Source: Fidelibacterota bacterium (GTDB taxonomy: Bacteria; Fidelibacterota; UBA8477; JABMPR01). Taken from it: a DNA stretch of 37,504 nucleotides. The position numbers were made by a program, and so were the translations under genes. The notes beneath the pieces were generated by a model. It saw only the letters and a list, made by a program, of their open reading frames with translations, made no database searches and had not been told where the DNA came from. Within the stretch, counting starts at the first letter, position 1; the number at the start of each line of letters is the position of its first letter. Positions 2 to 25,485 of this stretch are shown one piece after another. The stretch is taken from NCBI GenBank assembly GCA_013202495.1, contig JABMQQ010000028.1, positions 1 to 37,504 on the forward strand, given 5' to 3'.

Positions 2-1222
2 CAATTGGGTATTTTTGCCAATGGTTACTGGGGACATCCCGCCATGAAATTACCACCAGAGGTCAATCTGATCGCAGCAGCTCATTATCTGGAAGCCTTC
101 GAGATCCAGAGAAAAGCAAACCAGATCACCACCATCCTGGGTTCAAAAACACCCCATATCCAGAATATGGCTGTGGGTGGTGTTTCCAATCCCATCAATC
201 CAGATAGTCAAGCTGCTCTCAATATGGAACGTCTCCAGATGGTCAAGGATCTTATGAATCAGTTGAAATCCTTTATCTACAATGCCTATATCGTGGATGT
301 TGCTGTGGTTGCTTCATTTTATCAGGACTGGCTGGGTTATGGCTCGGGTGTGATGGATTATCTATCTGTACCTGATTTCCCAACTGATACTAAGGGAACC
401 CAATTTGGAACTCCTGGTGGATATATACCTGGTGGAGATATTAGTAAACTCAAACCAATCACCTCTTTCCAGGACAAATATTTCCGTGACGGTGTCAAAG
501 AAAGTGTCAAACACTCCTGGTATGAAGGTGAGAGTAACTTGCATCCGTATAAGGGTGAAACTGAGCCCCATTACACTGATTTTGAAGACGATGGAAAATA
601 TAGTTGGGTGAAAGCGCCAACCTTCCTGGGCAAACCAGCCCAGGTCGGTCCTCTGGCAAACGTGTTGAACATGTATGCCCAAGGCCATGAGACAACCCAG
701 AAAGTAGCTGGAGTTGCTTTTGCCAAGATCAAAGCCATCACCAAATCCAAATCTGATATACCAATCAGCGTTCTGCATTCAACACTGGGTCGTCATGCTG
801 CCCGCGCTATCAGAACAGCAGTGCTGTTTGAAGAACTCGAGAAAAACTACAATCTCCTGATTAACAACATCGCCGGTGGCGATATGACAACCTTTAACCC
901 ACCAGTCTTTCCCAAGGGTGAGCAACAGGGTTTTGGTTTTCATGAAGCACCTCGTGGTGTTCTCTCTCATTGGATTGTTATCAAGAATGGTAAAATCGAG
1001 AATTATCAAGCAGTGGTTCCTTCTACCTGGAACGCCGCACCACGGAATGATGATGATGCAATAGGTCCTTATGAAGCTTCACTCGTGGGCAACCCCATTG
1101 CAGATGAAGAAAAACCACTTGAGGTCCTACGGACGGTTCACTCCTTCGATCCCTGTCTAGCATGTGCTATCCACCTGCATGACAATAAGCGGAAGGATAT
1201 TTCGAAAGTCCATGTCCTCTAG
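2..1222 (+). CDS. hybC: [NiFe] hydrogenase large subunit, HybC-like (5' truncated by window edge)
   Basis: This is the catalytic large subunit of a group 1 (membrane-bound, HybC/Hyd-2-like) [NiFe] hydrogenase, which oxidises or evolves H2 at a Ni-Fe(CN)2CO centre. Only about the last 405 residues are present. The frame is open to the left edge and family members are roughly 560-600 aa, so the N-terminal third with the first CxxC pair, and probably the small-subunit gene, lie outside. Seen directly: the family block GGHP-like/KLPPEVNLIAAAHYLEA near the start, HSTLGRHAARA in the middle, and the C-terminal nickel motif DPCLACAIH. After that His follows a 15-residue tail ending VHVL, which resembles the E. 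coli HybC tail (ending VKVL) that the maturation protease removes. The stop overlaps the protease gene. The TTG at 5 is not a real start. Identity is very secure; the exact subgroup is less so. Confidence 0.96.
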   Translation, partial: QLGIFANGYWGHPAMKLPPEVNLIAAAHYLEAFEIQRKANQITTILGSKTPHIQNMAVGGVSNPINPDSQAALNMERLQMVKDLMNQLKSFIYNAYIVDVAVVASFYQDWLGYGSGVMDYLSVPDFPTDTKGTQFGTPGGYIPGGDISKLKPITSFQDKYFRDGVKESVKHSWYEGESNLHPYKGETEPHYTDFEDDGKYSWVKAPTFLGKPAQVGPLANVLNMYAQGHETTQKVAGVAFAKIKAITKSKSDIPISVLHSTLGRHAARAIRTAVLFEELEKNYNLLINNIAGGDMTTFNPPVFPKGEQQGFGFHEAPRGVLSHWIVIKNGKIENYQAVVPSTWNAAPRNDDDAIGPYEASLVGNPIADEEKPLEVLRTVHSFDPCLACAIHLHDNKRKDISKVHVL

Positions 1223-1703
1223 CCCCGAGGTGGTCGTCCTCGGTCTGGGCAACATCCTCATGGAAGATGAGGGTATTGGTGTTCATGCCGCAAACCATCT
1301 CCAGGAGCACTATCACTTTAAGCCAGAAATCGAGATCGTTGATGGGGGAACCAGCGGTCTCGATCTTCTGACTTTTTTTGGGCCGGAAAAATCCATCCTA
1401 ATCATTGATGCAGTTAATTTTGATATGGAACCGGGTACCGTTGCCAAGCTTGAAGACGGTGCCATACTCACTCAGCTCGACCCCAAAGTTTCCCTTCATC
1501 ACCTTGGCTTATCGGATCTCATCAGTGTGGCTGAGCTTACGGATAGAAAAGCCAAACGAATGACGCTTCTCGGTATTCAACCGGAGTCCATGGAGAATCT
1601 GGATCTGGAAATGACTCCAACGATAAAAGGGGTATTTGACAAGGTTATCGAAAACGCACTGCGTATTCTTGAGGAGTGGGGAATAGAGAACCAAAAGCAC
1701 TAA
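1212..1703 (+). CDS. hybD: Hydrogenase maturation protease (HybD/HycI family, peptidase M52)
   Basis: This endopeptidase clips the C-terminal tail off the hydrogenase large subunit after nickel insertion. Its substrate is almost certainly the gene just upstream. The family signature GLGNILMEDEGIGVH is at residues 10-24, followed by VDGGTSGLDLL, IIDAVNF and SLHHLGLSD. The nickel-sensing acidic residues and histidine of the family fall in the DEGIG, DAV and HH positions. The length (163 aa) is typical. I chose the ATG at 1212 rather than the upstream TTG at 1164, because 1212 gives the standard N-terminus just before the GLGN motif and overlaps the hybC stop by only 11 bases, a translational-coupling arrangement. 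A GGAAGGA-like ribosome site lies about 13 bases upstream. Confidence 0.95.
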   Translation: MSSSPEVVVLGLGNILMEDEGIGVHAANHLQEHYHFKPEIEIVDGGTSGLDLLTFFGPEKSILIIDAVNFDMEPGTVAKLEDGAILTQLDPKVSLHHLGLSDLISVAELTDRKAKRMTLLGIQPESMENLDLEMTPTIKGVFDKVIENALRILEEWGIENQKH

Positions 1704-2167: not shown

Positions 2168-3698
2168 CAACACCCTCCCCAGAATTGTTATTACTGGGGC
2201 ATCTGGATTTATTGGTAGAAACTTTATAGAAGCCTACCAGGATGAATATCAGATTTTCGCCATTGCCCGACGGAGTCAGCAAGAAGTTGGGATACCCCGA
2301 CACAAAAATATAACCTGGTTTCTAGTTGATGTGGCCGAACCTGAAAATGTTCGCGATGCCATGGACGAAATACAGGGGGGAGGTGGTGCCGATTATTTTA
2401 TCCACCTCGCCGCCTTTTTTGATTTTTCAAATGAACCCAATAAGGAATACGAACGCACCAATGTAAACGGCTCAAAACTGATCTTTGAGGCAGCAGCAAA
2501 TCTGGGCCTTAAAAGATTTATTTTCGCCAGCTCTCTGGTCGTCTCAGAATTTCCTCAAAATGGCGATAAACTCACCGAGGAAAGTTCCCTGGATGCCGAC
2601 TTCCCATATGCAGTCACCAAGATTGCAGGTGAAGCCATGGCAAAAGAATGGTCTAAATACTACCCCTGTACGGTGGTCAGATTTGCCGCTGTATTCAGCG
2701 ATTGGTGTGAATATGGACCATTATATAAGTTTTTAGACACCTGGTCCTCTCGCTCCTGGAAATCAAGAGTACTTGGAGGGAGAGGCGAATCAGCGGTTCC
2801 CTACATTCACATAGTTTGCCTTGTCAGAATGTTGAGGACCATACTTGATAAGACAGAAAAGCTGAAACCCTTTGATGTGCTCATCGCCAGCCCGGATGAA
2901 AGCACCAGTCACCAGGAACTTTATGATTTAAGTACACGATTTGTCTTTGGCGAAAAACGCAAGGCTATTCATATACCAGCTATCCTGGCCAGACTGGGTG
3001 TCTCCCTCATGGATTTAGCAGGCCGACTCATTGGTCGCCGTCCTTTTGAACGTCCCTGGATGATGAAGTATATCGATGAATGCATGGATGTGGACGCTGG
3101 ATATACTAGAAAAGAGTTAGACTGGAATGTTATTCCAAGATACCGACCAGAGCGTAGAATTCTACACGTGATTGAGCATATGAAAACCTACCCCAACGAG
3201 TGGCACCATAAGAATACCCTGGCTTTATACAAGAGCCCTGAAAGACCGAATCTTGAGATTTCTGAGGCGCTGGTCCATCAGGAAGAAGCAATTCTCACCG
3301 CTTTACTCGATCGAATTATGAACGTTGAAGACCCCACTCGATATCATTCCTATAAGAAAATGGATCCAGAAAAACTGTCCTGGTATCTTGGGATAGTGTA
3401 CAATTTATTAAAGGTTTCTGTACGGACAGGTGATCGCTTATCCCTGGCCAACTATGCACGATTTATTGCTAGTATTCGTATCCATGAAGGTTTTAAGTTA
3501 GCTGAGGTCGTTGATGTCTACCAAACTCTCTCTGATCTAGTCATTCAGCAGCTTCTCGAATTTGATTCTGCTAAGCATCTTGAGCAACGCATCCGCGACG
3601 ATATTGACCTGACCATTCAAATGGCAGTCGATGAAATCGAAGACGCATATGATATCGCTCAAGCTCCGACCTCCTACATTCGATTTCACAACAGATAG
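2160..3698 (+). CDS. NAD-dependent epimerase-like protein with RsbRD-like C-terminal helical domain (copy 1)
   Basis: This 512-aa protein has two parts. Residues 8-330 are an extended SDR (epimerase/dehydratase) domain: the dinucleotide motif GASGFIG is at 13-19, a DV acid region near 57, HLAA at 82-85, Ser124/125 in FASSL, and the catalytic YxxxK pair is Y150/K154. This part resembles 3-beta-HSD/dihydroflavonol-4-reductase-like SDRs. Residues about 365-505 are all-helical, with the pattern R-I-H-E-G-F-x-L-A-E-V-x-x-x-Y-x-x-L that recalls the RsbRD N-terminal domain of stressosome-type regulators. This second assignment is pattern-based only. The start is a GTG preceded by GAGGAG and overlaps the upstream stop. 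A paralogue follows directly. The substrate is unknown, and its presence behind a hydrogenase maturation gene is unexplained. Confidence 0.85.
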   Translation: MTDNTLPRIVITGASGFIGRNFIEAYQDEYQIFAIARRSQQEVGIPRHKNITWFLVDVAEPENVRDAMDEIQGGGGADYFIHLAAFFDFSNEPNKEYERTNVNGSKLIFEAAANLGLKRFIFASSLVVSEFPQNGDKLTEESSLDADFPYAVTKIAGEAMAKEWSKYYPCTVVRFAAVFSDWCEYGPLYKFLDTWSSRSWKSRVLGGRGESAVPYIHIVCLVRMLRTILDKTEKLKPFDVLIASPDESTSHQELYDLSTRFVFGEKRKAIHIPAILARLGVSLMDLAGRLIGRRPFERPWMMKYIDECMDVDAGYTRKELDWNVIPRYRPERRILHVIEHMKTYPNEWHHKNTLALYKSPERPNLEISEALVHQEEAILTALLDRIMNVEDPTRYHSYKKMDPEKLSWYLGIVYNLLKVSVRTGDRLSLANYARFIASIRIHEGFKLAEVVDVYQTLSDLVIQQLLEFDSAKHLEQRIRDDIDLTIQMAVDEIEDAYDIAQAPTSYIRFHNR

Positions 3699-3744
3699 TC
3701 CGTTACTACCGTTTGATCCAGGGGATCAAACTTTGATAGAAAAA

Positions 3745-5262
3745 ATGGGACTTCAAAATACCAATAAGACCGTCCTTATCACAGGTGCCTCAGGGTTCAT
3801 AGGTCGCCATCTCGTAAAACACCTGTGCCCAAATCACCATGTGATTGCTTTTGCCCGTCGGGCACAGAAGGAAGTTGGACTTGACCCTCACCCCAATCTG
3901 GAGTGGGTCCTGGTGGACCTTATGGATGCGGTACAACTTGAAAAAGCCTTTCGGACTTCGACAAACAAACACGATCTGGATTATATTTTTCACCTCGCTG
4001 CCTATTATGATTTTGGGGATCAGGTTTTCTCTGAAATTTATGAAAAAACCAATGTTGCAGCCACCCAACAGCTGTTAGAACTTGCCAACAAAACAAAGAT
4101 AAAACGCTTTATTTTTACCAGCTCACTCGTTGCCAGCAAATTCCCTGAACCCGGGGATCTGGTCTATGAAAGAAGTATTCCGAATGCAGACTATCCATAT
4201 GCTATCACTAAACGCAAGGGTGAAGAGTTTGTTAAGATCGCTTCACAGAATTTCCCCTGTTCCATTGTCAGATTGGCAGCCGTGTGTAGTGACTGGTGTG
4301 AATATGAACCCCTTTATCATTTTCTCAAAATCTGGTTGTCAGATCGCTGGGATTCGCGCATCCTCCCTGGATATGGATCTATGGCCATCCCGTACATCCA
4401 TGTGTGTTGCGTCATCGCCTTATTTGCCAGAATAATGGAAAAAAGTGAGCAGCTGGAAGACTTCAATATATTTTTAAGCAGTTCTGACAAACCTATGTCG
4501 TTGAAAGAACTCTTTCGTATTTCCACCAGACATTATTATGGCAAGGAAAAAGTTCCCATATTTATTCCCAAGCTGATAGCCCGAATCGGTGTCCAGGTCA
4601 GAGATCTCTGGGGTCGATTGATTGGACGGCGTCCCTTTGAAAGATTATGGATGACTGAATATATTGATAAGTCTTTTCCAACAGATTGTTCATACACCAG
4701 AAATACACTGGACTGGATACCCAAAGCAAGGCATGAATTAGATAGACGATTACTACATCTCATTGAGAATCTAAAAACTCGACCTGACAAATGGCACAGA
4801 ATGAATGTTGATAGAATAAGTCGCTTTCAACGTAATAGGCCAGCATTGATTCTAGCCGAAGAAATGGTTCGTATGCATGAGGAATTGGTTGAGAAAGTAT
4901 TTCAAACAATCAGGAGTCCTTATAATAAGACCCGCTTGAGCTATTATCAGGAAATGCCTGTTGAAGATCTGAGATGGTACATCAGTGTTGTGTATAATCA
5001 TTTGCTAACATCAGTCAGACATGGAGATCGGTCGATAATGATCACTTTTGCACGAGATTTGTCACACCGTCGAATGGAAGAAGCAGTCAGCCTGGAGGAA
5101 CTATGTGGAGCGTTGACAGATACTCGAGATGTGATCACACACTTACTATACAATAATCCCAAACTGGTGAGCATTAAGTTGCTGGTGCATGATTATATCA
5201 CTCTGGCTATTCAACTGGCAATCGATGAAATTAAAGACGTTTATGAAAACGTACCTCGGTAG
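3745..5262 (+). CDS. NAD-dependent epimerase-like protein with RsbRD-like C-terminal helical domain (copy 2)
   Basis: This is a tandem paralogue of the preceding gene with the same two-part architecture, 505 aa from the ATG at 3745. The SDR part has GASGFIGRH near residue 15, HLAAYYDFGD, FTSSLVASKF and YAITKRKGE (Y and K of the catalytic pair). The distinctive block GRLIGRRPFER is shared almost exactly with copy 1. The C-terminal about 150 residues are helical and align with copy 1 (WYISVVYNHLLTSVRHGDR against WYLGIVYNLLKVSVRTGDR). The open frame extends upstream to an ATG at 3631 inside copy 1, but the start at 3745 places the nucleotide-binding motif at the normal distance from the N-terminus. 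The gap to copy 1 is 46 bases. The two copies have diverged along their full length, so this is an old duplication. Confidence 0.84.
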   Translation: MGLQNTNKTVLITGASGFIGRHLVKHLCPNHHVIAFARRAQKEVGLDPHPNLEWVLVDLMDAVQLEKAFRTSTNKHDLDYIFHLAAYYDFGDQVFSEIYEKTNVAATQQLLELANKTKIKRFIFTSSLVASKFPEPGDLVYERSIPNADYPYAITKRKGEEFVKIASQNFPCSIVRLAAVCSDWCEYEPLYHFLKIWLSDRWDSRILPGYGSMAIPYIHVCCVIALFARIMEKSEQLEDFNIFLSSSDKPMSLKELFRISTRHYYGKEKVPIFIPKLIARIGVQVRDLWGRLIGRRPFERLWMTEYIDKSFPTDCSYTRNTLDWIPKARHELDRRLLHLIENLKTRPDKWHRMNVDRISRFQRNRPALILAEEMVRMHEELVEKVFQTIRSPYNKTRLSYYQEMPVEDLRWYISVVYNHLLTSVRHGDRSIMITFARDLSHRRMEEAVSLEELCGALTDTRDVITHLLYNNPKLVSIKLLVHDYITLAIQLAIDEIKDVYENVPR

Positions 5263-5278: not shown

Positions 5279-5797
5279 CTATTTTAATTGAATTTTGCAG
5301 CTACGGCAAAATTGATCAGATTTTTGATCCATTTCCTCAACATAAGTTGTGGAAACCATGACACATCCTGGCAAGAGGCAATGTTTCAAACCAAAAGCAT
5401 GTCCCAATTCATGAATGATGCATTTCAGGAGTCTTTCAGAGAAAAGTTTAGGATCATCGGCCAAACCGTAGCGGGCATTGACCAAGCGATGTCCGGAAAC
5501 CAGAGCCACAGAACCGCCAAGATAGGCTTGTCCAAAAATATAACTCAAAACAGGAATAAACAAATCTAGGTCTGTAACGCCTACAATCTTATCACCTTCA
5601 TCAACCAGAGGAACCATTTTCTGAATGATATCGTTGGCATTGTATTGGGATCGAACGGGATTAAAAAAGGGAGTCAGATCCATTCGGTGTGTGCTGACTA
5701 AAGTTTCTATTTTGAACCGTGCACTGATGAGGGGAAGCATTTGCTCCAACACCTCAACTCCTGCGAATTGCAGAGGGATGATTTTGATCCGGGACAT
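5279..5797 (-). CDS. amzA: Archaemetzincin (zinc metallopeptidase, family M54)
   Basis: This 172-aa protein carries the complete archaemetzincin signature near its C-terminus: HELGHAFGLKHC (HExxHxxGxxH plus C), then CVMVSTTY with the metzincin Met, and a terminal CxxC (CRSC) expected to bind a second zinc. Length and motif spacing fit the family. It is predicted to be a cytoplasmic peptidase because there is no signal peptide; substrates of the family are unknown. The start is the ATG at 5797, with AGGA about 9 bases upstream and 20 bases after the response regulator stop, so it is probably the last gene of the minus-strand redox operon. It converges with the epimerase gene, leaving 16 bases between the two stops. 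The family is common in archaea and patchy in bacteria. Confidence 0.93.
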   Translation of the reverse strand: MSRIKIIPLQFAGVEVLEQMLPLISARFKIETLVSTHRMDLTPFFNPVRSQYNANDIIQKMVPLVDEGDKIVGVTDLDLFIPVLSYIFGQAYLGGSVALVSGHRLVNARYGLADDPKLFSERLLKCIIHELGHAFGLKHCLLPGCVMVSTTYVEEMDQKSDQFCRSCKIQLK

Positions 5798-5817
5798 TTA
5801 ATTAGTCCTGAACGACT

Positions 5818-7158
5818 TTATTTGTTTTTCTCGATTTTGTATTTCTTGATTTTACTATATAAAGTTACCCGATCCACTCCCAGCGCTTTGGCAGACCTTG
5901 ATATATTCCAGTCATATTTCTCCAAGATGCCCTGGATGTGATGGTATTCCATCTCCTGAATGGATTCCCAGGTGGGTTTCGCTGCGACATGATCCAGTGG
6001 CAAGTCTTTGAGTTGAACCGTATCACCTGTACCGATAACGATAGCTCGTTCGATCAGGTTTTCCAATTCACGAACATTGCCTGGGAAATCATAATTGTTC
6101 AAAGCCTTAGCGGCACGTCTTCCAATATGTTTTGTTCCCTTGTTCATCTGCTCGGCATAGAACTTTACGAAATGCTCAGAGAGAGGTTTGATGTCTTCGG
6201 TTCGCTCTCGCAAGGGTGGAATTGTGATTGAAAATACATTTAAGCGGTAGAATAAATCTTCCCTGAACTCTCCGGCATTCACCATTGCCTGAAGGTCACG
6301 GTTGGTGGCGCAAATCACACGGAAATCTGACTTGAATTCCCTATTTCCCCCTACTCGTGTAAACGTTTTGGCTTCCAGAACCCGTAATAGTTCAATCTGC
6401 ATCTTCATTGATATGGTAGAAATTTCATCCAGGAACAAGGTTGCCCCATCGGCCATTTCAAATTTACCCTTTCTGGCATATTGAGCACCGGTAAAGGCAC
6501 CCCGCTCATGCCCGAACAACTCACTCTCCATGAGATTTTCAGCAATAGCCCCACAATGAACGATTACCATTGGAAAAAAGCGTCGGGAGGAATTCATGTG
6601 AATAGCTTTAGCTATAAGCTCCTTACCCGTACCACTATCACCATTGATGATAACTGTAGAATCTGTTCCAGCTACTACTCTGACTTGTTCCAGGACTTTG
6701 AGAATACCTTCACTTTCACCAATGATATCCTCAACATTAACCAGGCTTTTAATTCGATCCTGGAGGGAAATGTTTTCCTGACTCAAGTGAATAGTTTTAC
6801 TGGCGTTACGAATGATGTGAGTGATAGCATCTGGATCAAAAGGTTTGCATACATAATCATAGGCACCATCCTTTAAAGCCTGGACGGCAGAATCCACGGA
6901 TGCAAAAGCGGTCATGATGATCACTACTGCTTCGTCATTGATGGATTTGATTCTGCGGTTTAACTCGAGCCCGTCCATACCTGGAAGCTTGATGTCAACC
7001 AGAATGATGTGAAAATTAAAAGCTTCAATTTTTTTCAGTGCGACTTTAGCATCTTCAGCAGTGTCAACAGAATAGCCATCTTCTATGAACCAGTTTGAGA
7101 GCGAATCACGCACTGAGAGCTCATCATCAACAATTAGAATGGAGAGATTATTGTCCAT
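5818..7158 (-). CDS. Sigma-54-dependent response regulator (NtrC family)
   Basis: This 446-aa cytoplasmic transcription activator has three domains. The receiver domain has DDE at 11-13 and phospho-acceptor D55 in ILVDIKLPGMDG. The AAA+ domain has Walker A GDSGTGKE at 173-180, the sigma-54-contacting GAFTGA loop at 220-225, and FLDE as Walker B. The C-terminal Fis-type helix-turn-helix contains SRSAKALGVDRVTLYSKIKK. I chose the ATG at 7158 because GGAGGA sits 7 bases upstream and the start overlaps the kinase stop by 11 bases; a longer frame from a TTG at 7185 lacks this. It is coupled to the histidine kinase, its obvious partner. Its likely target is the -24/-12 promoter at 13287-13302 at the head of the same gene cluster; that link is inferred. 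Confidence 0.95.
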   Translation of the reverse strand: MDNNLSILIVDDELSVRDSLSNWFIEDGYSVDTAEDAKVALKKIEAFNFHIILVDIKLPGMDGLELNRRIKSINDEAVVIIMTAFASVDSAVQALKDGAYDYVCKPFDPDAITHIIRNASKTIHLSQENISLQDRIKSLVNVEDIIGESEGILKVLEQVRVVAGTDSTVIINGDSGTGKELIAKAIHMNSSRRFFPMVIVHCGAIAENLMESELFGHERGAFTGAQYARKGKFEMADGATLFLDEISTISMKMQIELLRVLEAKTFTRVGGNREFKSDFRVICATNRDLQAMVNAGEFREDLFYRLNVFSITIPPLRERTEDIKPLSEHFVKFYAEQMNKGTKHIGRRAAKALNNYDFPGNVRELENLIERAIVIGTGDTVQLKDLPLDHVAAKPTWESIQEMEYHHIQGILEKYDWNISRSAKALGVDRVTLYSKIKKYKIEKNK

Positions 7159-8824
7159 CTTCGGATCCTCCGTATGAAAGTTCAAAATTAAATTTTATTG
7201 AAGTACCTTTACCTGGTGCCGAGTCTACGTAAACTTTTGCATTGTGCTGCTCCAAAATGCCATAGGTTACAGCTAACCCCAGCCCTATACCTGACATTTC
7301 CTTCTTACTGGAGAAGAAGGGCTCAAACATATGCTCCTTGTCTTCAGCAGAGATCCCAATTCCATTGTCTTTGATTTCAATGGTGATATGCTGCATATCA
7401 GGATTATAACTTCGGTAGGTGACCAGACCATCTCCACCTTCGTCGACTGCCTCCAAGGCATTGGTTAACACGGCCAGGCAAGCTTGAATTACCTGATTAC
7501 CATTGGCTTGGACCTGGTCTCTAGATGCTGAAAAATCTGTAACCAGTCTGACATCAGAGATTTGAAAACTGTGTTGAATAAGTCGTGCTGTTTCACCCAG
7601 CACCTCATTCACATTGAGAGAATCAAATTTTTGACTACTATCCATGGAAAAATTAAGCAGACCTTTAACAATGTTTCCACATCTGGTGGTCTCAGATTGA
7701 ATCATATCAAGATGTCTTAAGACAGCTTCTCTTTTCTCTTCTGTGAGCTCTGGATTTTGGAGAATCCGGGAGACCAGCTTGGCATAGGTAAGCACACCGG
7801 CCAGGGGATTGTTAATTTCATGGGCTACAGATGATGATAGTCGGCCTAATGAAGCAAGGCGCTCGATCTGATAGATTTCATTTTGCGATCGAGCCATATC
7901 CTCGGATTTGGTTCTGACCATGTTTTCCAGGTCATTGGACCACTGATGCATTTCCCGATTACTTTGATTGATGGATTCCAACATGGTATTCAAAGCCATC
8001 CCAACCTGGTGGACATCTCTGAGTTCATTTTTGGCGACATCCACGCGAACTGATAGATTTCCAGCAGTTACGGATCGACTCACATCCACAATGCGCTTTA
8101 AAGGCCGATTAACCCATCGCTCAATGAAGAATAGAAGGGTAGCCATGAGCAGAAAGAGGAAGAGCATGATGATGCCAAAATATTCATAGAGAATGTTACT
8201 CAGGGCTTTATCCAGCTCCGTGAGAGGAAGTTTAATTTCCATGAAACCCAGGACTTCAGAGTCTTCGTTGGTCTGGTGGCAACCTGAGGAACGACACTCT
8301 GGTGTAGACATAATAGGAGATAAAACAATCATGGTACGACCCTCCGCACCCTGGATGTTATATACACAAGTTTCAGGCATACCCCATTGACCCGGATCCA
8401 CGGATGAATGGCAATGCGTACATGGCAACATGGAATCCTCTTCATGGCCACCATTCATAGCACCGGGAGAGTGATGTTTGATGTCGCCCTCATCATTGAA
8501 AATGGTGATAGCACTGACCCCAGGTACTCCTTGAACTTTTGCAAGTGCTTCTGTCAGCTCTGCGTGGTCCTCACTAATCATGCTACTGCGGATTGTGTGA
8601 TCAATTACCGTAGACATCCGCTTCCCAAACCTTTTGGTGACATTTTCGAGATAATTATTTGACATTGAGAATATGAGCCAGGCGAGAAATGCAAATAATA
8701 GCAAAGACATGGAGGACAACAGTATGACCAGATGGCCATAAAGCGAGTTGGGTCTTTTTAGGTTGTCCCAGATGGTTGCACGTTTTGTCTGAGTTGGTGA
8801 AAAATGTTTATCCCTTGAACTCAT
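7148..8824 (-). CDS. Sensor histidine kinase with periplasmic c-type haem motifs
   Basis: This 558-aa membrane kinase has a transmembrane helix at about 31-53, a periplasmic domain at 54-210, a second helix at about 211-236, a HAMP region, a coiled coil, HisKA with SVAHEINNP (phospho-acceptor H335) and an HATPase domain with DNGIGIS and GIGLGLAV. The unusual part is the periplasmic sensor: it has one canonical CxxCH haem site (C135-T-H-C138-H139) and a CX4CH site (C177 to H183). These suggest one or two covalently bound c-type haems, hence redox, NO/CO or oxygen sensing. The ribosome site GGAGGGG precedes the ATG. It overlaps the NtrC-type regulator, so the two form a two-component pair. The gene lies downstream of the HybA/HybB/GcvH-like genes and probably senses the state of that electron-transfer chain. 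Confidence 0.94.
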   Translation of the reverse strand: MSSRDKHFSPTQTKRATIWDNLKRPNSLYGHLVILLSSMSLLLFAFLAWLIFSMSNNYLENVTKRFGKRMSTVIDHTIRSSMISEDHAELTEALAKVQGVPGVSAITIFNDEGDIKHHSPGAMNGGHEEDSMLPCTHCHSSVDPGQWGMPETCVYNIQGAEGRTMIVLSPIMSTPECRSSGCHQTNEDSEVLGFMEIKLPLTELDKALSNILYEYFGIIMLFLFLLMATLLFFIERWVNRPLKRIVDVSRSVTAGNLSVRVDVAKNELRDVHQVGMALNTMLESINQSNREMHQWSNDLENMVRTKSEDMARSQNEIYQIERLASLGRLSSSVAHEINNPLAGVLTYAKLVSRILQNPELTEEKREAVLRHLDMIQSETTRCGNIVKGLLNFSMDSSQKFDSLNVNEVLGETARLIQHSFQISDVRLVTDFSASRDQVQANGNQVIQACLAVLTNALEAVDEGGDGLVTYRSYNPDMQHITIEIKDNGIGISAEDKEHMFEPFFSSKKEMSGIGLGLAVTYGILEQHNAKVYVDSAPGKGTSIKFNFELSYGGSEDGQ

Positions 8825-8887
8825 GTCCCCTCCAAATATGCTTCCTGAGCTTGCGTCGTGTGGTTAAGGGTGCAGAATATGTGCCAG

Positions 8888-9595
8888 TTAGCACATGTAG
8901 GCATGATTGTCGCTGATTTCTAGTAAGTATTTAGAGAGCTCATTTTTTGGAAGCTGGAATTTTCTTGTGAGCTGGAGCGACTTCTCATCCTCCGGTATTT
9001 GAACAAGGGTATTCAACTTTTCCAGATCTAAACGAGTTTGGGTAAGGTATTCATCCTTGGGATGATATTCCAGCCGGGTGGATCTTTCGGAGGATTCCAG
9101 TTCCACAAACCAGAGATCTTGTGCTGGTGTGAGATAGAGATGACTATCCGAAACATCATGAGCCAGGAAGAGTGGATTCGATTGGATGATCTGTCCTGGA
9201 ACAGGTGTACGCAGATAGATAATACCATCTTCTAATTGCAGCCAGCTGAAACACTGATCCTCAACCAATGTGGTATTTATCTCCGGGGTAATTATTTTGT
9301 GCGCTGAGACGAACAAATGCCAGAGAAAGCCATCTATCCCCAGGCGAATCCGACGTTCACTCACACGCTTATACCAGAAATGGCGATTGATAAACTGAAG
9401 TCCTGGTGTGAACTCAGCTACTGATTCACCAGGATTTCGAATGGTTATATCAGAAGTATTATTCTGGGAAACCATAGTGCGGCAACCTCTCATCATTTCC
9501 TTATAGAAATCGCAAATGTCACAGTTTTGATTTAATGGACAGAGTTGATAGTCTACAGACCCTGCCTCCATCCAGATGCATTTTTTTGTGTCCAT
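8888..9595 (-). CDS. Cys-rich GcvH-like protein (third H-protein homologue of the cluster)
   Basis: This 235-aa soluble protein has no signal peptide or membrane segment. The N-terminal 40 residues are rich in Cys (C6, C19, C25, C28, C38) in the pattern KKCIWM...LCPLNQNCDICDF, suggesting a metal or Fe-S site. Residues from about 65 resemble the glycine-cleavage H-protein fold: RHFWYKRVSERRIRLGIDGF parallels the HxW...G-x-x-x-V-G-I-x-x-F block of H proteins and of the two other GcvH-like genes in this operon. The region where the lipoylated lysine should sit (around SDSHLYLTPAQ) has no lysine, so lipoylation there is unlikely. I recall similar Cys-headed GcvH-like proteins from deltaproteobacteria, but no function is known to me. 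The ribosome site is weak, and a 96-base gap with an inverted repeat precedes the gene. Confidence 0.72.
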   Translation of the reverse strand: MDTKKCIWMEAGSVDYQLCPLNQNCDICDFYKEMMRGCRTMVSQNNTSDITIRNPGESVAEFTPGLQFINRHFWYKRVSERRIRLGIDGFLWHLFVSAHKIITPEINTTLVEDQCFSWLQLEDGIIYLRTPVPGQIIQSNPLFLAHDVSDSHLYLTPAQDLWFVELESSERSTRLEYHPKDEYLTQTRLDLEKLNTLVQIPEDEKSLQLTRKFQLPKNELSKYLLEISDNHAYMC

Positions 9596-9628
9596 TGTAG
9601 TTCCGCAGCCTGTTTACTTGTCAATTCT

Positions 9629-9665
9629 GGGAGGGGAACCTGGGATGTTCCAGAAGGCTCCCCTC
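9629..9665 (-). repeat. Inverted repeat between the second and third GcvH-like genes
   Basis: A GAGGGG arm at 9631-9636 pairs with CCCCTC at 9660-9665, and a smaller inner pair (AAC/GTT, 9637-9639 with 9647-9649) lies in the loop. On the minus-strand transcript this would be a stable hairpin 34 bases before the ATG of the Cys-rich gene. No U-run follows, so it is more likely a processing or translation-modulating element, or chance, than a terminator. Confidence 0.35.
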
Positions 9666-9691
9666 ACAATTTGTCTCAGTGACCTGTAATA

Positions 9692-10387
9692 CTAACTTTT
9701 TACAGCATCAATGAATTCACTCTGAAATTCTTCCCAAATCTCGGGGGACATTGACCCAAGCACCTGGTCTACTATCTCACCACCTTCCTGTAGCAGGACG
9801 GGTTGATCGTTCAGATTGTATTTGAGCTCTGCAAAAGCGAGTACATCGCGAAGTCGGGCATGTTCTTGTCGAATCCAGTCCTGTGCTTTTTCACCCATGA
9901 TTAGCATGGATTTTTCGATGTCCCAGCGTTTGGGTTCCATATCAAACAGCCAATTCTCTGTGAATTCATTATTTGTACGCTTACTGAATATTTTCAAGGC
10001 TGATTTGTTGATAGATTTCAGTGTTCCGCTTACAGGTGAGTATATCTTTAAACTTTTTTCGTCTCCCATCAGGGTTGCGATATGTTCACCACGTTTTATA
10101 GTCTCACCACGGTGTATATTGAGTTTTAGGGTCACCGGTCCTGTGAGTGCAGTCAAAAAATCATCTATCCCAACTCTGATCTTTCCGGCGGTTTCCAAAT
10201 ACGCCCAGGTATGGGTCGCATCAAAATAAACTCCCCGGGGTAAACGAACTGCAGATAGGGAAAGCCTTGGCATTTCAGTTTCCTTGAGCAATCGCCAGAA
10301 GGGAATAACAACAATAAAAAAGCCGATGACGATGAGGTACTCAACACCTTTTGTAGAAAATATATTTAGATAGCTAAATCCATCCAT
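9692..10387 (-). CDS. Membrane-anchored GcvH-like protein (copy 2)
   Basis: This 231-aa protein begins with one hydrophobic anchor (about residues 15-33) followed by an H-protein-like domain (about 48-170). ATHTWAYLE and GKIRVGIDDF match the conserved N-terminal blocks of GcvH, and IYSPVSGTL matches the IYAPVSGEI block after the lipoyl hairpin. In an ungapped alignment to E. coli GcvH, the lipoyl-lysine position is E110, and a lysine (K111) sits one residue later. A C-terminal extension of about 60 residues contains LLQEGGEI, shared with copy 1 and absent from normal H proteins. The gene starts 6 bases after the HybB-like gene with AGGAG upstream. No glycine decarboxylase or aminomethyltransferase gene is in the window, so a role in glycine cleavage is unlikely. 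It is probably a structural or electron-carrier component of the HybA/HybB-like complex; this is inference. Confidence 0.82.
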   Translation of the reverse strand: MDGFSYLNIFSTKGVEYLIVIGFFIVVIPFWRLLKETEMPRLSLSAVRLPRGVYFDATHTWAYLETAGKIRVGIDDFLTALTGPVTLKLNIHRGETIKRGEHIATLMGDEKSLKIYSPVSGTLKSINKSALKIFSKRTNNEFTENWLFDMEPKRWDIEKSMLIMGEKAQDWIRQEHARLRDVLAFAELKYNLNDQPVLLQEGGEIVDQVLGSMSPEIWEEFQSEFIDAVKS

Positions 10388-10393
10388 GATTCC

Positions 10394-11632
10394 TTAACTC
10401 CTCTCAATGTTTTGGGATTTGACGACTTCTTCTATTGGGCGTAACACAGGTAAGCGATGTAAAACCCAACGAAATATCCATATCTCCAGGAATAGGACAG
10501 CAAAGGTGACTTCAAACTCCATCCAGGTTGGAATGTAGCGATCCACGGTCATCCAATTAAAACCGATGACTGATATATTTAGTCGGTTCAGGATAATTCC
10601 GATGAGTGTCATAAGTGAGGCGATTTTGATGATGAGGGGCTCGCCTGTTTTGACGCCCCTGATAAACAGAAACATGGGTATCATGACAAAGCCGATTATT
10701 TCAACAAGATACCAGGCTCCCCAGGATGTGAACAAATGGCTCAGATGATGACCATGGACCAGATCTAGGATCTTCAAAAACAAATACGCAAACATTGCCA
10801 CAGAACATATTTTGGCAAGTCCACGCAGAATTTGATCATGGCTTTTATGATTACCCTTTGCCAACTGGTGGGAAAAAACACGATGGGTAATTGAACCCTC
10901 AAAGATGACCATAGATAGTCCAGCAAAAATACTGGATACGAAAAAGAGAATGGGGATGAATTCTGAATACCACAGCGGATGAATCTTGCCCTTGGCCATG
11001 AGAAATAGTGCCCCCAACCCAGATTGATGAAGGGTTGATAGGGTGATCCCGAATATGACTGCTCCAATAGTAAGACTTTTTAGTATCCTGCGTGCTCGCT
11101 CAGCACCAAGCCATTCAGCGATTGCCGGGGAAAATTCAATGAGCTCAGCCAGCATATAGAGCATAAAATGCCAGGCCACCAGGAATAGAACACTGCTGGT
11201 CCCAAAGGAATTGCCAATTATCGGGTTGATAACATTCCATGGGCGTCCTAAGTCCAGTAAAAGCGCTCCAGCATAAAATAAATAGGCCAGAAAACCATTG
11301 AGGACTGTGACTCTTACAATTGAGTGATACTTCTCCATTCTGAGGATGTAAACCATAAAAGTTAGCACATATGCCCCTCCGGCAAAGGCCACTCCGGTGA
11401 CCACATCAAAACCTATCCATAAACCCCAGGGGACCTCCTGAGAAAGATTGGTAATTGAAGATAGACCTTTCCAGAACCTGATAATGATCAACACCAGACC
11501 GAGCAGGATGACAGGTACAGAAATAATATTGAAAGGGGTGAGCAGTTTCCCTTTAGGCTTTAATTCACCCAGTAGGAATTTCCAGCGATTCGTTTTTGGT
11601 TGTAGATCTTTGCTAAGAATGTGCTCACTCAT
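10394..11632 (-). CDS. hybB: HybB/NrfD-family quinone-reactive integral membrane subunit
   Basis: This 412-aa polytopic membrane protein with about ten helices belongs to the NrfD/PsrC/HybB family, which passes electrons between periplasmic Fe-S subunits and the quinone pool. Recognisable features are the early PWGLWIGFDVVTGVAFAGGA segment and the following helices with acidic and aromatic residues (LLDLGRPWNVINP) typical of HybB. It overlaps the HybA-like gene by four bases (ATGA), so the two are translationally coupled and surely form one complex. The symbol reflects similarity to HybB. Because the hydrogenase large subunit at the left edge is on the opposite strand and about 9 kb away, I cannot tell whether this pair serves that hydrogenase or a separate complex with the GcvH-like proteins. 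Confidence 0.9.
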   Translation of the reverse strand: MSEHILSKDLQPKTNRWKFLLGELKPKGKLLTPFNIISVPVILLGLVLIIIRFWKGLSSITNLSQEVPWGLWIGFDVVTGVAFAGGAYVLTFMVYILRMEKYHSIVRVTVLNGFLAYLFYAGALLLDLGRPWNVINPIIGNSFGTSSVLFLVAWHFMLYMLAELIEFSPAIAEWLGAERARRILKSLTIGAVIFGITLSTLHQSGLGALFLMAKGKIHPLWYSEFIPILFFVSSIFAGLSMVIFEGSITHRVFSHQLAKGNHKSHDQILRGLAKICSVAMFAYLFLKILDLVHGHHLSHLFTSWGAWYLVEIIGFVMIPMFLFIRGVKTGEPLIIKIASLMTLIGIILNRLNISVIGFNWMTVDRYIPTWMEFEVTFAVLFLEIWIFRWVLHRLPVLRPIEEVVKSQNIERS

Positions 11633-12498
11633 TCTTCCACCTCCAGCTCATTGTTTTCAGGTTCACGTTTTGTGGCTTCTCTTAATCCGAGCAAGAGGGC
11701 AGGCCAGAGCACGAATACAGAAGGGACGCTATACAAGAAGCCTTTGGTCAGCTCTGGATATGGTTTGTGGTCCATACTTGTGTTAAATCCAAGTTCCTCG
11801 AAGGGAACAGGTGATATATTTAGCCAGGAGGTTCCACCTGCTTCAAACTCGCCATACACATGATCAACATAATTGCTGGGATCATCCAGGATTCTGCGAT
11901 GAGCTTCTCTCAATATTTCACTACGTTTTCCAAAGATGAGAGCTTCTGCAGGACAGTTCTCCACGCAAGCTGGAATTTCACCCTCTGTTAGTCTGGAGAA
12001 GCACATCTGGCATTTACCGATCTTTGGATTGTTACTATCATACTCGAATTTTGGCATATTGAATGGGCAAGAGAGCATGCAGAAACGACAGCCCATACAT
12101 TTGTCTCCATCCCAGGTAATGGGTCCCTCCTCATGCTTTTCCATTGCTTTGGTTAGACAGGCTGAGGCACAGGCGGGTTGGGCACAATGCATACATTGTT
12201 GTTTTGTATACACCTCACCAATACTGGTTTCCACGGCATTGATTACAGAGTATTGATCAGGTTTCAATTTTCGTTTTACTTCACTATCCGGATAATCAGA
12301 AGGTTCTGGCAAGCTGTTGGCAACGGCACAGGCAAACTCGCACTCCTGACAACCTTCACAGAGCGTGATATCATGCAGGATAGCATAAAACTCTTCAGAG
12401 TGAGACTCAGGTTTAGATTGGCCTAGTGCAGAAACACCGCTCAGGCTGGCGCCAGCGACACCAAGGGTTTTAAGAAATTCTCGTCGATCTATAGACAT
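11629..12498 (-). CDS. hybA: HybA-like Tat-exported ferredoxin subunit with four [4Fe-4S] clusters
   Basis: This 289-aa periplasmic electron-transfer protein starts with a twin-arginine signal, DRREFLKTLGVAG. Four cysteine groups follow: CEGCQECEFAC, CMHCAQPACASAC, CMGCRFCMLSC, and CQMC with CVENC, enough for four cubane clusters, as in HybA/DmsB/NrfC proteins. Near the C-terminus, GFLYSVPSVFVLWPALLLG is a probable membrane anchor, also found in HybA. It is coupled by a 4-base overlap to the HybB/NrfD gene. AGAGAGGA lies just upstream of the ATG. The expected role is to carry electrons between a periplasmic catalytic partner and the membrane subunit. No catalytic subunit is encoded in this operon, so the partner is either the hydrogenase at the left edge or unknown. 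Confidence 0.93.
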   Translation of the reverse strand: MSIDRREFLKTLGVAGASLSGVSALGQSKPESHSEEFYAILHDITLCEGCQECEFACAVANSLPEPSDYPDSEVKRKLKPDQYSVINAVETSIGEVYTKQQCMHCAQPACASACLTKAMEKHEEGPITWDGDKCMGCRFCMLSCPFNMPKFEYDSNNPKIGKCQMCFSRLTEGEIPACVENCPAEALIFGKRSEILREAHRRILDDPSNYVDHVYGEFEAGGTSWLNISPVPFEELGFNTSMDHKPYPELTKGFLYSVPSVFVLWPALLLGLREATKREPENNELEVEE

Positions 12499-12543
12499 GC
12501 TGTATCCTCTCTTCTATAGGGAATTATTCAATACACACGACAC

Positions 12544-13254
12544 TCAAGTATTTTCTTTGAGCTCAAGATTAGCTTGATCAAGAATGAGCTTTTGAAAGGA
12601 GCCCCAGAGGCCTCTACCCGCAAAAGCCATCGCTCCTTCAGCGATATCCCCTCCCTCTTGTAACAAGACAAGACCACTTACAGAATCTGGTGGAGCGAAT
12701 GAGTACGCAAAGAAATCACGGATTCGAGACATTTCTGCTTTTAACCAGGTTGTTGTTTGTTGACCAAGATACAAACGCTTGGTCTCAAGTTCCCAGTTGC
12801 TGGGAGTCATTTCAACCAGCCAACCAGTTGAATAAGGATCACGATGAGTCATCCGCATGTTTTGAAGGGCCTCGGAATTGATCCCCCTGACCTTGCCAGA
12901 CACAGGAGCAGAGATGACCAGCTTTTTTCCTTTGTGTAACATGGTGAAGATGGGGTCACCCTGTTTGACGGATGCTCCCTCCTCTGGAACCTGTATACCA
13001 GTAAGAATCCCCGTCAGACCATGCAGAAATGAATCCACGCCGACTCTGGCTCGACCATTGGTTTGCATATGTGCCCAGCTATGGGTTGGGCTGAAATATA
13101 TTCCTGCAGGAATGCTCAAATTCTCCAATTTGAATTGATAAGCCTGCTTTTTTACTATGGGAGAAAGACTAAGAACGCGATTGCGTCGTATACCTTGATA
13201 CCAGGATAACAAAATCGCGAGTGCTACAAAAAAAACGACGAGAAAGATGACCAT
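12544..13254 (-). CDS. Membrane-anchored GcvH-like protein (copy 1, first gene of the operon)
   Basis: This 236-aa protein has an N-terminal membrane anchor (about residues 2-19), then an H-protein-like domain: IYFSPTHSWAHMQ, GRARVGVDSF, EEGASVKQGD and APVSGKV. The lipoyl-lysine position in an ungapped alignment with GcvH is G109, with lysines at 110 and 111 instead. The C-terminal extension contains LVLLQEGGDIAEG, shared with copy 2. The start has a strong AAAGGAGG ribosome site, and a sigma-54-type promoter lies 33-48 bases upstream, so this heads the operon. The anchor is followed by basic residues (GIRRNR), which by the positive-inside rule argues for a cytoplasmic domain, whereas HybA is periplasmic; the topology is not settled by the sequence. 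Function unknown; probably part of the HybA/HybB-like redox complex. Confidence 0.82.
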   Translation of the reverse strand: MVIFLVVFFVALAILLSWYQGIRRNRVLSLSPIVKKQAYQFKLENLSIPAGIYFSPTHSWAHMQTNGRARVGVDSFLHGLTGILTGIQVPEEGASVKQGDPIFTMLHKGKKLVISAPVSGKVRGINSEALQNMRMTHRDPYSTGWLVEMTPSNWELETKRLYLGQQTTTWLKAEMSRIRDFFAYSFAPPDSVSGLVLLQEGGDIAEGAMAFAGRGLWGSFQKLILDQANLELKENT

Positions 13255-13286: not shown

Positions 13287-13302
13287 TTCAATAGCGGTGC
13301 CA
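13287..13302 (-). promoter_or_regulatory. Candidate sigma-54 (-24/-12) promoter of the GcvH/HybAB operon
   Basis: Read on the minus strand the sequence is TGGCAC-CGCTA-TTGAA, against the consensus TGGCAC-N5-TTGCA. The -24 half is perfect, the spacing is exact, and only one base of the -12 half differs. It would start transcription about 20 bases before the AAAGGAGG ribosome site and ATG at 13254. An NtrC-type sigma-54 activator is encoded in the same cluster, which supports the call. Confidence 0.68.
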
Positions 13303-18715: not shown

Positions 18716-20620
18716 TTGTGGCCATTTGTTAAATCCGGGCTAATTCTAATGTTACTGGCATTTCAAATTGTTAGTTGTTCTAGTGGAACTCCTTCGAATC
18801 CAATTGCCAGAAATGGGATTCTTGATCTTCGGGATCATGAATTCATCAGTCACCTCCGGCTAGATGGTGAATGGAGATTTGTCTGGCGGGACACAAGCAC
18901 TTCAGGTATTGCACCTTCTGATGACCATATAAATATCGAGGTCCCTGATTCCTGGAAGGGCTATCGCTATAGTGGGGTGAAGCTTCCTGGACATGGTGCC
19001 GGAAGTTATTTTCTCACTATTCTCATCCCGGAACGATCTGAATCATATGCTATAAAAATCTCAACAGCTGGCACAGCCTACAATCTATTTGTTAACGATG
19101 ATCTTGTGGGAAGTGTGGGTATCTATTCTGTCGATTCAAGTATGTCTCGGCCACTGTATGAACCAAAAATATTCAATCTTGGCCCCCTCTCAAATCAATT
19201 GACGCTGAGATTCGATGTATCCAATTATGATCATCGACTGGGAGGACTCTGGGAGTCCATTACCTTTGGGACGACTGAAGAAATTTACGAATATCGGGAA
19301 AAACAGGTCGCCATGGCACTGTTTATGTTCGGAACCATTTTTGTCATGGGTATTTATCACCTCGGTGTATTCTCATTAAGCACCCGCGGGACGCCTGCCC
19401 TATATTTTGGAATTTTCTGTTTAATTATCGGATTGAGAACCCTGACCACCGGTGAAATATTCATCCACCAAATCTGGCCGTCCCTTTCATGGCAAACGCT
19501 GATCAAACTTGAATATCTCACATTTTTCACAGGCATCCCCATTTTTTTCCTGTTTGTGCGCCAGCAGTTCCCAGATGAACTCAATGCGCGGGTCAGCCAT
19601 GCCGTTGTTGGAATCTCATCCCTGTTCGTGTTATTGGTTCTGTTTACCCGGGTGGACACATTTTCAGCATCATTGACTTACTTCCAACCCCTGAGTCTAA
19701 TCATTATGCTATATGTCATCTATGGTCTTGTCCTGGCATTTATCCGTGGTGAAGAGGGGTCTACAATGGTCCTGGTGGGATTCCTGACCCTCGTAATCAC
19801 TTTCATGAATGATATGCTTTATGTGGCAAATGTCCTGCATACTGGTCATCTCATCTCACTTGGTCTATTGATTTTTATTTTAACTCAGGCCTTCTTGATT
19901 TCGATCCGCTTCTCAAAAGCATATACCACGATTGATCTTCAACGTACCAAACTTGAGCGAACCAATACAGCCTATCAGGCTGAAATTGAAAGTCGAAAAT
20001 CAGCCGAACAGGAAGTACTTCAGCATAAGGAAAATCTTGAGGAATTGGTTGAGGACCGTACTGCTGAATTGCAGATAGCCAATAAACGTCTAGAAGAATT
20101 ATCCCGAGTTGATGGCTTAACCGGAATAGCCAATCGCCGTCGTCTCGATGAAGAACTGGATCGCGAATGGAAACGTATGCTCCGTGAAAAACGTCCCCTC
20201 AGTGTGGTGCTGTGCGATATTGACCACTTCAAGCTCTACAATGATACCTATGGTCATCAGGGTGGTGATGAATGCCTCATTCGCGTAGCCAATGCCATAA
20301 AAGATTCCGTTAACCGACCTGGTGATTTAACAGCCCGCTATGGTGGCGAAGAATTTTGTCTGGTTTTGCCAGAAACCAGTGGTATAGGAGCCATGAAGAT
20401 TGCAGAACTGGTCCGGAAGAATGTGTTTGAGCTAAATATGGAGCATAAATCGTCACCCATGGCCGAGGTAGTTACACTCAGTTTAGGAGTTGCTACACTT
20501 ATCCCGGATATTGGAAGCCATCCCAGTGTTTTACTGGAAGCTGCTGATAGAGCGCTTTATCAGGCTAAAGGCAATGGTCGCAATAGGGTCGAGCAAAATC
20601 TGATCGAGGCACCAGACTAA
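18716..20620 (+). CDS. Membrane diguanylate cyclase (7TM-DISM sensor plus GGDEF)
   Basis: This 634-aa protein makes cyclic di-GMP. Order: signal or lipoprotein-type N-terminus (about 1-22, LLAFQIVSCSSG), an extracellular jelly-roll-like region (about 25-190, with LDGEWRFVWRD and GAGSYFLTI) as in 7TMR-DISM sensors, seven helices (about 195-400), a coiled coil (KENLEELVEDRTAEL), and a GGDEF domain (about 455-625). The active-site motif is GGEEF, and the inhibitory RxxD site (RPGD) lies five residues before it, so the enzyme is probably active and product-inhibited. The start is uncertain: the TTG at 18716 gives a complete signal peptide, while an ATG 11 codons later gives a shortened one. The N-terminal sensor domain probably binds a carbohydrate or related ligand. 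Confidence 0.93.
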   Translation: MWPFVKSGLILMLLAFQIVSCSSGTPSNPIARNGILDLRDHEFISHLRLDGEWRFVWRDTSTSGIAPSDDHINIEVPDSWKGYRYSGVKLPGHGAGSYFLTILIPERSESYAIKISTAGTAYNLFVNDDLVGSVGIYSVDSSMSRPLYEPKIFNLGPLSNQLTLRFDVSNYDHRLGGLWESITFGTTEEIYEYREKQVAMALFMFGTIFVMGIYHLGVFSLSTRGTPALYFGIFCLIIGLRTLTTGEIFIHQIWPSLSWQTLIKLEYLTFFTGIPIFFLFVRQQFPDELNARVSHAVVGISSLFVLLVLFTRVDTFSASLTYFQPLSLIIMLYVIYGLVLAFIRGEEGSTMVLVGFLTLVITFMNDMLYVANVLHTGHLISLGLLIFILTQAFLISIRFSKAYTTIDLQRTKLERTNTAYQAEIESRKSAEQEVLQHKENLEELVEDRTAELQIANKRLEELSRVDGLTGIANRRRLDEELDREWKRMLREKRPLSVVLCDIDHFKLYNDTYGHQGGDECLIRVANAIKDSVNRPGDLTARYGGEEFCLVLPETSGIGAMKIAELVRKNVFELNMEHKSSPMAEVVTLSLGVATLIPDIGSHPSVLLEAADRALYQAKGNGRNRVEQNLIEAPD

Positions 20621-20653
20621 TTGTAGCAGCATCTTGTTATTTGCCGATTTTCT

Positions 20654-22129: not shown

Positions 22130-22194
22130 ACCTTATCCCCAAATTTTTAGAAATTCTGATGGCAAATATATTGATTGAGAAACGATTACCCTAA

Positions 22195-23813: not shown

Positions 23814-23997
23814 CGGATCCGTTCATTCATTTTTTTACAAGATAATCGATTCAATATAGTTGAAAAAACGTTTCATCTTTGCAGATATTTCAGTGAGATG
23901 GCAAGATGCAGGACTTGATTGTAGTGGGCTCTTCATTTAGTTTTCATGGCTCCATCAACTCTGATGAAGCAAGCTTGATTTAAACGAAGGAACAACA

Positions 23998-25428: not shown

Positions 25429-25485
25429 ACGCTGCCCAAATGCATCTGCAATTCTAACAGCTGATAATACTTATTGAGGTACCAT

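Follow-up and report, generated by a model that had tools for sequence, protein, structure and literature searches.

The window analyzed here, the whole 37,504-nucleotide stretch of contig JABMQQ010000028.1, carries on its minus strand eight co-directional genes, spanning 13254 to 5279, that encode, in order, GcvH_A, HybA, HybB, GcvH_B, GcvH_C, a histidine kinase, a sigma-54 response regulator, and an archaemetzincin (Amz). This operon is a recurrent and, within the open-access literature searched, where no description of a GcvH-HybAB gene set was found, undescribed variant of the Hmc/HybAB-type quinone-linked complex. With a little better than even confidence, we take its product to be a quinone-reactive, probably electrogenic Hmc/HybAB-type electron-transfer complex that has a redox-sensing regulator and H-protein subunits free of lipoate. 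Gene order, recurrence, loss of the lipoyl lysine, membrane anchors, conserved residues, and promoter-like sites are what the sequence itself offers toward this reading.

An initial annotation, made from the letters of the window, had described three GcvH-like proteins built around a HybA/HybB pair. All five open reading frames (ORFs) were found where it placed them, their GcvH-like, HybA, and HybB identities hold in Pfam and NCBIfam searches (for GcvH_C, by predicted fold), and the 16 Cys of HybA are confirmed by count. Beyond what it covered, the operon continues into the kinase, the sigma-54 regulator, and Amz, and the end of a hydrogenase operon with HycI lies at 2-1703. The HybA and HybB genes share 4 bases, the HybB-GcvH_B gap is 6 bases, and the kinase and regulator genes overlap. 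The features of the operon are as follows.

12544..13254, minus strand: GcvH_A; N-terminal transmembrane (TM) helix, lipoate-less GcvH domain, C-terminal LLQEGGDI region (Pfam GCV_H, 1.4e-15)
11629..12498, minus strand: HybA/HmcB-like protein; 16 Cys, twin-arginine translocation (Tat) signal RREFLK (Fer4_11, 1.6e-20)
10394..11632, minus strand: HybB/HmcC/NrfD membrane subunit (NrfD, 1e-12); 10 hydrophobic segments in the family profile
9692..10387, minus strand: GcvH_B; TM anchor weakly similar to HmcD, lipoate-less GcvH domain, LLQEGGEI region (GCV_H, 5.8e-10)
8888..9595, minus strand: GcvH_C; soluble, N-terminal Cys motif C-x12-C-x5-C-x2-C, diverged GcvH domain assigned by fold search
7148..8824, minus strand: sensor histidine kinase (HAMP, HisKA, HATPase_c); CXXCH and CX4CH in the sensor region
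5818..7185, minus strand: NtrC-type sigma-54-dependent response regulator (Response_reg, Sigma54_activat, HTH_8)
5279..5797, minus strand: archaemetzincin zinc protease (Peptidase_M54, 1.6e-22; NF033823 at 146 bits, above the cut-off of 145)
13287..13302, minus strand: predicted sigma-54 promoter of gcvH_A, TGGCACCGCTATTGAA; starts 48 bases 5' of the ATG, matches 10/11 consensus positions, conserved
8871..8886, minus strand: predicted second sigma-54 promoter, 5' of the kinase gene, TGGCACATATTCTGCA; 10/11 consensus positions

H-protein-like proteins and the lost lipoyl lysine

What separates these proteins from the H protein of glycine cleavage? GcvH_A and GcvH_B score 57.7 and 39.6 bits against Pfam GCV_H (cut-off 22.2), and they are 34% identical over 187 aa, a stretch that includes the C-terminal LLQEGG(D/E)I motif that the initial annotation had recognized in both. 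The NCBIfam gcvH cut-off of 115.85 bits is not reached by GcvH_A (55.1) or GcvH_B (35.4), and GcvH_C has no match to that model. Pfam gave no convincing family for GcvH_C, its one match, at E 0.036, being unrelated; it aligns with GcvH_A at 29.6 bits. All 22 PDB chains at E<=1e-3 to the low-confidence structure model of GcvH_C (mean predicted local distance difference test score, pLDDT, 55) are H-proteins or GcvH-like, and the same is true of the 22 chains matched by the low-confidence model of GcvH_A (pLDDT 46). The low-confidence fold and the weak alignment, its sole basis, suggest that GcvH_C is an H-protein. Its four Cys are invariant in both 7-row alignments.

The initial idea, that these subunits might carry lipoate as a cofactor, is not supported by the lysine count. 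We aligned 63 GcvH-like proteins, of which 11 were A, 10 B, and 12 C and the other 30 came from the outside loci, a few of these without HybAB, with 10 reference rows consisting of true GcvH and sHdr-type LbpA-like proteins. The lipoyl-lysine column holds Lys in 10/10 references and in 0/63 GcvH-like rows, window A, B, and C included, with Gly at this position in window GcvH_A; the GcvH-like proteins are therefore not lipoate carriers, which leaves the structural, docking, and signaling roles. In the tree, the references form one separate clade (support 100/99), and the remainder is poorly resolved because the alignment has few columns. The precedent of GcvH-like proteins in the sHdr system, which had been invoked for these genes, consequently holds for the fold and fails for lipoate. 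A permissive [DE]G[GA] pattern past residue 140 is found in 54/63 rows, including all 21 A/B rows, and is absent from window GcvH_C. As the initial annotation had also said, there is no GcvP or GcvT in the window (none among 32 ORFs scanned with Pfam); elsewhere in the host genome, on contig C142, a true gcvH (125 aa, lysine present) lies directly upstream of the GDC-P gene. Separately, sHdr-like clusters that include a Lys-bearing LbpA-like GcvH protein were observed in related genomes (L051, L054, L056); they contain EtfAB-like genes, a CCG/Fe-S protein, and a lipoate-ligase domain, a content checked with Pfam in L056 alone.

Recurrence across genomes and phyla

Within the home genus, GcvH_A is present at E<=1e-100 in 16/19 genomes, its own included, and among the genus loci listed the gene order is the same up to the contig ends. 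The nearest named relative is a metagenome-assembled genome (MAG) of Candidatus Neomarinimicrobiota, isolate BS150m-G71 (L037; GcvH_A 96%), from which the host is probably one of the Marinimicrobia. Outside the genus, HybB occurs with GcvH-like genes in 19 loci from 18 genomes, 12 of them outside the phylum, so that the linkage, which the initial annotation had proposed to survey, recurs across phyla and is not unique to this genome, and the proteins fall inside the GcvH fold. Six of these loci lie in the same phylum and were reached via C-type relatives (L053, L091, L092, L093 with L094, L097, and L098; L093 and L094 are two contigs of one genome). The search set comprised 392 genomes, 147 of these outside the phylum; from 15 of the 147 we took 18 stretches, chosen for strong or multiple GcvH-type matches, and 13 of the 18 (12 genomes, 12 families) have HybB with GcvH-like genes: L127 and L128 (one genome), L130, L131, L132, L134, L135, L136, L138, L140, L141, L142, and L143. 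The remaining stretches have a GcvH-like gene and HybA with no HybB seen (L129), GcvH_C with kinase, regulator, and Amz and no HybAB (L133, L137), neither a GcvH-like gene nor HybB seen (L144), or, at 5675-7249, a pair of GcvH-like genes that are lipoate-less and of the system type, with no HybAB in the stretch (L139), the genome of the last having its HybAB cluster on another contig (L140).

By the labels of the search tool, five distinct phyla are represented, as searches centered on G301, G258, G348, G264, and G268 gave separate genome sets; A/B-type matches at E<=1e-30 were found in 1/1, 1/1, 2/2, 8/9, and 3/3 of their genomes, respectively. Ten more genomes of the G348, G264, and G268 phyla all have HybB beside a GcvH match (10/10), the L183 GcvH gene having been placed from profile-search coordinates and the ORF table having missed the L189 HybA and one L190 GcvH gene. 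Starting instead from NrfD, with a model built from system members and biased in favor of these, 33 loci at E<=1e-30 were found outside the phylum in 23/147 genomes, and by hand comparison a GcvH-like gene lies no more than 10 kb away in 13 of them. In the stretches taken for the 19 loci, the other operon genes are present in 18 (kinase), 15 (regulator), and 10 (Amz); the kinase is absent from the L053 stretch and lies ~11 kb away in L140, and for L094, L131, and L134, whose contigs stop too early, the counts are incomplete. Viral contigs searched held no relatives, and plasmids searched gave no GcvH_C match; 15 plasmid records have HybB matches at 27.8-29.8% identity, named hybB wherever an annotation exists, and add no new copies. 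A scan of genome contigs gave four MAG loci.

Electron-transfer core, anchors, and regulatory genes

The best NCBIfam match of HybA is HmcB, at 317.5 bits (equivalog cut-off 420), and HybB scores 394.1 bits against HmcC (equivalog cut-off 550); both are below the cut-off. The 16 Cys of HybA are expected to provide four 4Fe-4S sites. Of the residues listed in PMC8076601, Table 2, for the quinone site and half-channel of E. coli HybB, window HybB keeps 17/25: Asp58, Asp109, Ser129, Tyr77, Tyr84, His85, Arg89, Tyr99, Tyr141, Glu148, Glu155, His184, Ser186, Lys198, His200, Glu291, and Arg329, with changes at Ser105, Glu133, Ser190, Thr63, Ser95, Ser187, Arg265 (to Lys), and Glu268 (to Asp). Asp109 and Ser129 belong to the E. 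coli quinone site, and replacing Arg89, Tyr99, Glu148, or His184 lowered hydrogen oxidation in E. coli, according to the same source (PMC8076601). Both termini of HybB and every other loop are basic, in loci whose HybA has a Tat signal and in loci whose HybA lacks one alike (L141 HybB lies outside this test); an inverted HybB in the Tat-less loci, which we considered, is unsupported by loop charge.

GcvH_A has a TM helix that is followed in most rows by basic residues, and because the positive charges follow the helix its domain is predicted to be cytoplasmic. GcvH_B has a short segment before the TM helix and the same charge trend, which is unclear or absent in several rows. Its anchor exceeds the cut-off of the HmcD model in 3/10 B proteins (L097, L098, L127), matches weakly in 5/10, that of the window among them (E 0.069), and does not match in L132 and L139. 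With the anchor HmcD-like in several copies, HybA-HybB-GcvH_B appears to parallel HmcB-HmcC-HmcD, a counterpart for the HybA/HybB setting that the initial annotation could not name. Outside the genus, an anchored GcvH gene lies directly 3' of HybB in 9/10 loci with Tat-type HybA versus 1/7 Tat-less loci (Fisher p 0.004, uncorrected for kinship). The exceptions are L142 among the Tat-type loci and, among the Tat-less, L093, whose anchor looks A-like; L097 HybA has RK and L098 RN in place of RR, and both were counted as Tat-type, and loci of one genome with HybA or HybB not fully readable were left out. In L131, at 1869-3809, HybB and a GcvH-like domain are found within one 646-aa frame.

How might the operon be controlled? 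A -24/-12 sigma-54 site matching at least 9/11 positions occurs in 23/28 upstream regions, versus 2.9% in Markov shuffles, and one matching at least 10/11 in 17/28, versus 0.34% expected; the sites of at least 9 are in 12/12 genus regions and 11/16 elsewhere, the 16 including two regions each from L136 and L143. Window-wide there are three sites of at least 10 versus 1.2 expected, and two of these are directly 5' of gcvH_A and the kinase gene. A site of at least 9 precedes the kinase in 11/11 genus loci checked and in 0/16 others. These sites match the operon's own NtrC-type regulator: both elements of a sigma-54 operon, a predicted -24/-12 promoter and an NtrC-type activator, were found by sequence, and the host genome also encodes RpoN. 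The sensor region of the kinase has CX4CH in 23/24 kinases and CXXCH in 18/24, motifs that we take to bind c heme, and the kinase is a putative c-heme redox sensor. GcvH_C adjoins the kinase or regulator gene in the genus and in ten loci (L091, L092, L097, L098, L127, L128, L131, L132, L134, and L136), and it adjoins Amz in L130. The module of GcvH_C, kinase, regulator, and Amz also occurs without HybAB in L095, L137, and L133, beside NuoE/NuoF-like genes in L095 and L137 and with an Fe-hydrogenase-type gene downstream in L095; L096, a shorter contig, has the same genes around GcvH_C as L095 and no kinase.

In the mechanism that we infer, which covers the role of the H-protein domains, the formation of the complex and its partners, which way electrons flow, the binding of heme, and the use of the promoters, HybA would be periplasmic and, through four 4Fe-4S clusters, would relay electrons between the quinone site of HybB and donors or acceptors in the periplasm, of which multiheme c cytochromes are the likeliest. 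HybB would move protons via a conserved N-side half-channel. GcvH_A and GcvH_B would each be anchored by a single helix with the H-protein domain facing the cytoplasm, the GcvH_B anchor substituting for HmcD, and their domains, having no lipoyl arm, would most likely cover HybB on its cytoplasmic side and offer surfaces for docking or gating. Soluble GcvH_C, with its four conserved Cys, would go with the kinase, regulator, and Amz as the module that also exists without HybAB; the kinase would use c-type hemes to sense the redox state of the periplasm, and the regulator would activate the sigma-54 promoters of gcvH_A and, in this genus, of the kinase. The membrane redox setting with H-protein-like subunits that the initial annotation had suggested is supported. 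A bolder and doubtful version is that this is an ancient respiratory complex that crosses phyla, in which the H-protein fold, stripped of lipoate, sits on the proton-entry face of NrfD and either gates proton uptake or reports the quinone pool to a heme kinase/sigma-54/archaemetzincin circuit.

Proteins such as these match models named "glycine cleavage H protein" and could be misfiled under amino-acid metabolism, while their surroundings in the examined loci are those of a respiratory operon that has a switch of its own. If true, the reading would set apart a class of NrfD complexes that have cytoplasmic subunits, provide a testable role for lipoate-free relatives of the H protein, and link archaemetzincin to bacterial redox regulation.

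Neighboring genes, rival explanations, and known systems

Two context features that are not part of the operon lie at the start of the window.

2..1222, plus strand: [NiFe] hydrogenase large subunit, 3' part (NiFeSe_Hases, 2.9e-151)
1164..1703, plus strand: hydrogenase maturation protease HycI (HycI, 3.8e-30)

Together they are the end of a HybO-HybA-HybB-HybC-HycI operon that, in two genus genomes (L145, L146), lies ~4 kb from the end of the GcvH operon. This hydrogenase has its own HybA and HybB (L145-L147). In the window genome, the hydrogenase HybB, on contig C187, shares 70% identity with the GcvH-type HybB of G224, whereas the hydrogenase HybB of relatives reaches 38% at best with the HybBs of the system, which suggests replacement or recombination. 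Multiheme genes are near the cluster in L042 (8, 12, and 4 motifs), L043 (8), L097 and L098 (13), L136, L138, L142, and L143 (4 to 14), and L181-L189 (4 to 14), and none is near the cluster in L190. Other genes at 18716-36330 of the window encode a 7TMR-GGDEF protein, two YegS/DAGK lipid-kinase-like proteins, two PmbA/TldD proteins, and electron-transfer flavoprotein (ETF) subunits with an acyl-CoA dehydrogenase.

Could the H-protein-like subunits act otherwise? That A and B sense, from the cytoplasmic side, the quinone or proton-motive-force state of HybB and signal through Cys-rich GcvH_C to the kinase and regulator, with Amz trimming a signaling partner, seems rather unlikely to us. The adjacency of GcvH_C to the kinase, regulator, or Amz described above, the module beside NuoEF-like genes without HybAB (L095, L137), and the four conserved Cys all fit such a sensory role; yet the kinase has a putative heme-type sensor of its own, the C-like gene of L135 does not adjoin the kinase, L142 and L143 have no separate C, and the GcvH_C of G224/G222 has one or no Cys within its first 70 residues. 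Far less probable is a carrier of lipoate, or of another acyl or sulfur group, that would work like LbpA through a neighboring lysine and couple quinone redox to dithiol/disulfide chemistry. The residue after the lost site is K or R in 17/21 A/B rows, and Lys in window A and B, and related genomes do have sHdr-type clusters with Lys-bearing LbpA-like proteins. However, 8/21 A/B rows have Arg, Met, Gln, Asn, or Glu there instead of Lys, so that a lipoyl site shifted to this position is unlikely; all 12/12 C rows have a residue other than K or R, the Lys-bearing references stand apart as a clade, and a lipoate ligase, present in the sHdr-like cluster L056, is missing from the eight genes of the operon. 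Equally improbable is that the operon is a duplicated HybAB part of the nearby [NiFe] hydrogenase with the GcvH-like genes as assembly factors: the hydrogenase operon is close by, its end being in the window, but it already possesses HybA and HybB, and no large subunit was noticed beside GcvH-type HybAB in other phyla when ORF tables were inspected by eye, without a family search.

Several observations weigh against the electrogenic, quinone-reactive complex that we prefer. Window HybB keeps 3/6 of the proposed quinone-site residues (Asp58, Asp109, Ser129). HybA has no Tat signal in seven loci (L053, L093, L130, L136, L138, L141, L143), where the predicted orientation of HybB is unchanged, and a periplasmic-HybA model leaves the route of these HybAs to the quinone side unexplained. 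Among the matches listed, 20/33 NrfD loci have no GcvH-like gene within 10 kb, and with L139, L133, and L137 they indicate that HybAB and GcvH-like genes are separable; eight such loci (L149-L155, L158) have HybAB-like genes and no clear GcvH-like neighbor in the ORF tables, although in L149 the table missed HybB and a 197-aa ORF has a weak GcvH match at 7e-4, and in L151 the HybAB-like genes adjoin a 16-heme cytochrome. The structure models are of low confidence (pLDDT 46 and 55) and carry the fold assignment alone. No multiheme gene adjoins the operon in the window. Five further upstream regions (L135, L140, L141, and two of L142) gave 0/5 sigma-54 sites of at least 9, for a combined count of 23/33. 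The lack of a site in L142 and L143 is as expected, because their regulators (263 and 245 aa), judged by length, seem to be without a sigma-54 domain; L135, L140, and L141 have full-length regulators yet no site was found, which is not as expected.

How does the system compare with those already known? The Hmc complex of sulfate reducers is composed of HmcABCDEF. The present operon resembles it in having proteins like HmcB and HmcC and, next in the identical order, an anchor that is HmcD-like in several copies, and in the multiheme cytochromes near many copies. Unlike Hmc, its HmcB and HmcC scores are below the equivalog cut-offs, a GcvH domain is fused to the anchor and accompanied by a second anchored GcvH protein, and none of the eight genes resembles HmcE or HmcF. 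With HybA/HybB of E. coli hydrogenase-2 it shares a 4x[4Fe-4S] Tat protein and an NrfD-like quinone/proton subunit with channel residues in common; unlike hydrogenase-2, there is no hydrogenase subunit in the operon, HybB is 29% identical to the E. coli records, and the partners are GcvH proteins. The core idea of an FeS/NrfD unit with multiheme cytochromes is also that of the modules of MBNT15 (and of Melioribacter, as cited there) proposed as quinol oxidoreductases, for which the parts of PMC9386147 consulted make no mention of H-protein-like subunits. The fold is that of the GcvH H-protein and of LbpA, whose Lys is described as strictly conserved in sHdr (PMC6067878). Unlike LbpA loci, the eight operon genes include no Hdr-like gene in family scans, and unlike GcvH and LbpA, the proteins have lost the lipoyl lysine and possess a membrane anchor and a DGG-type extension.

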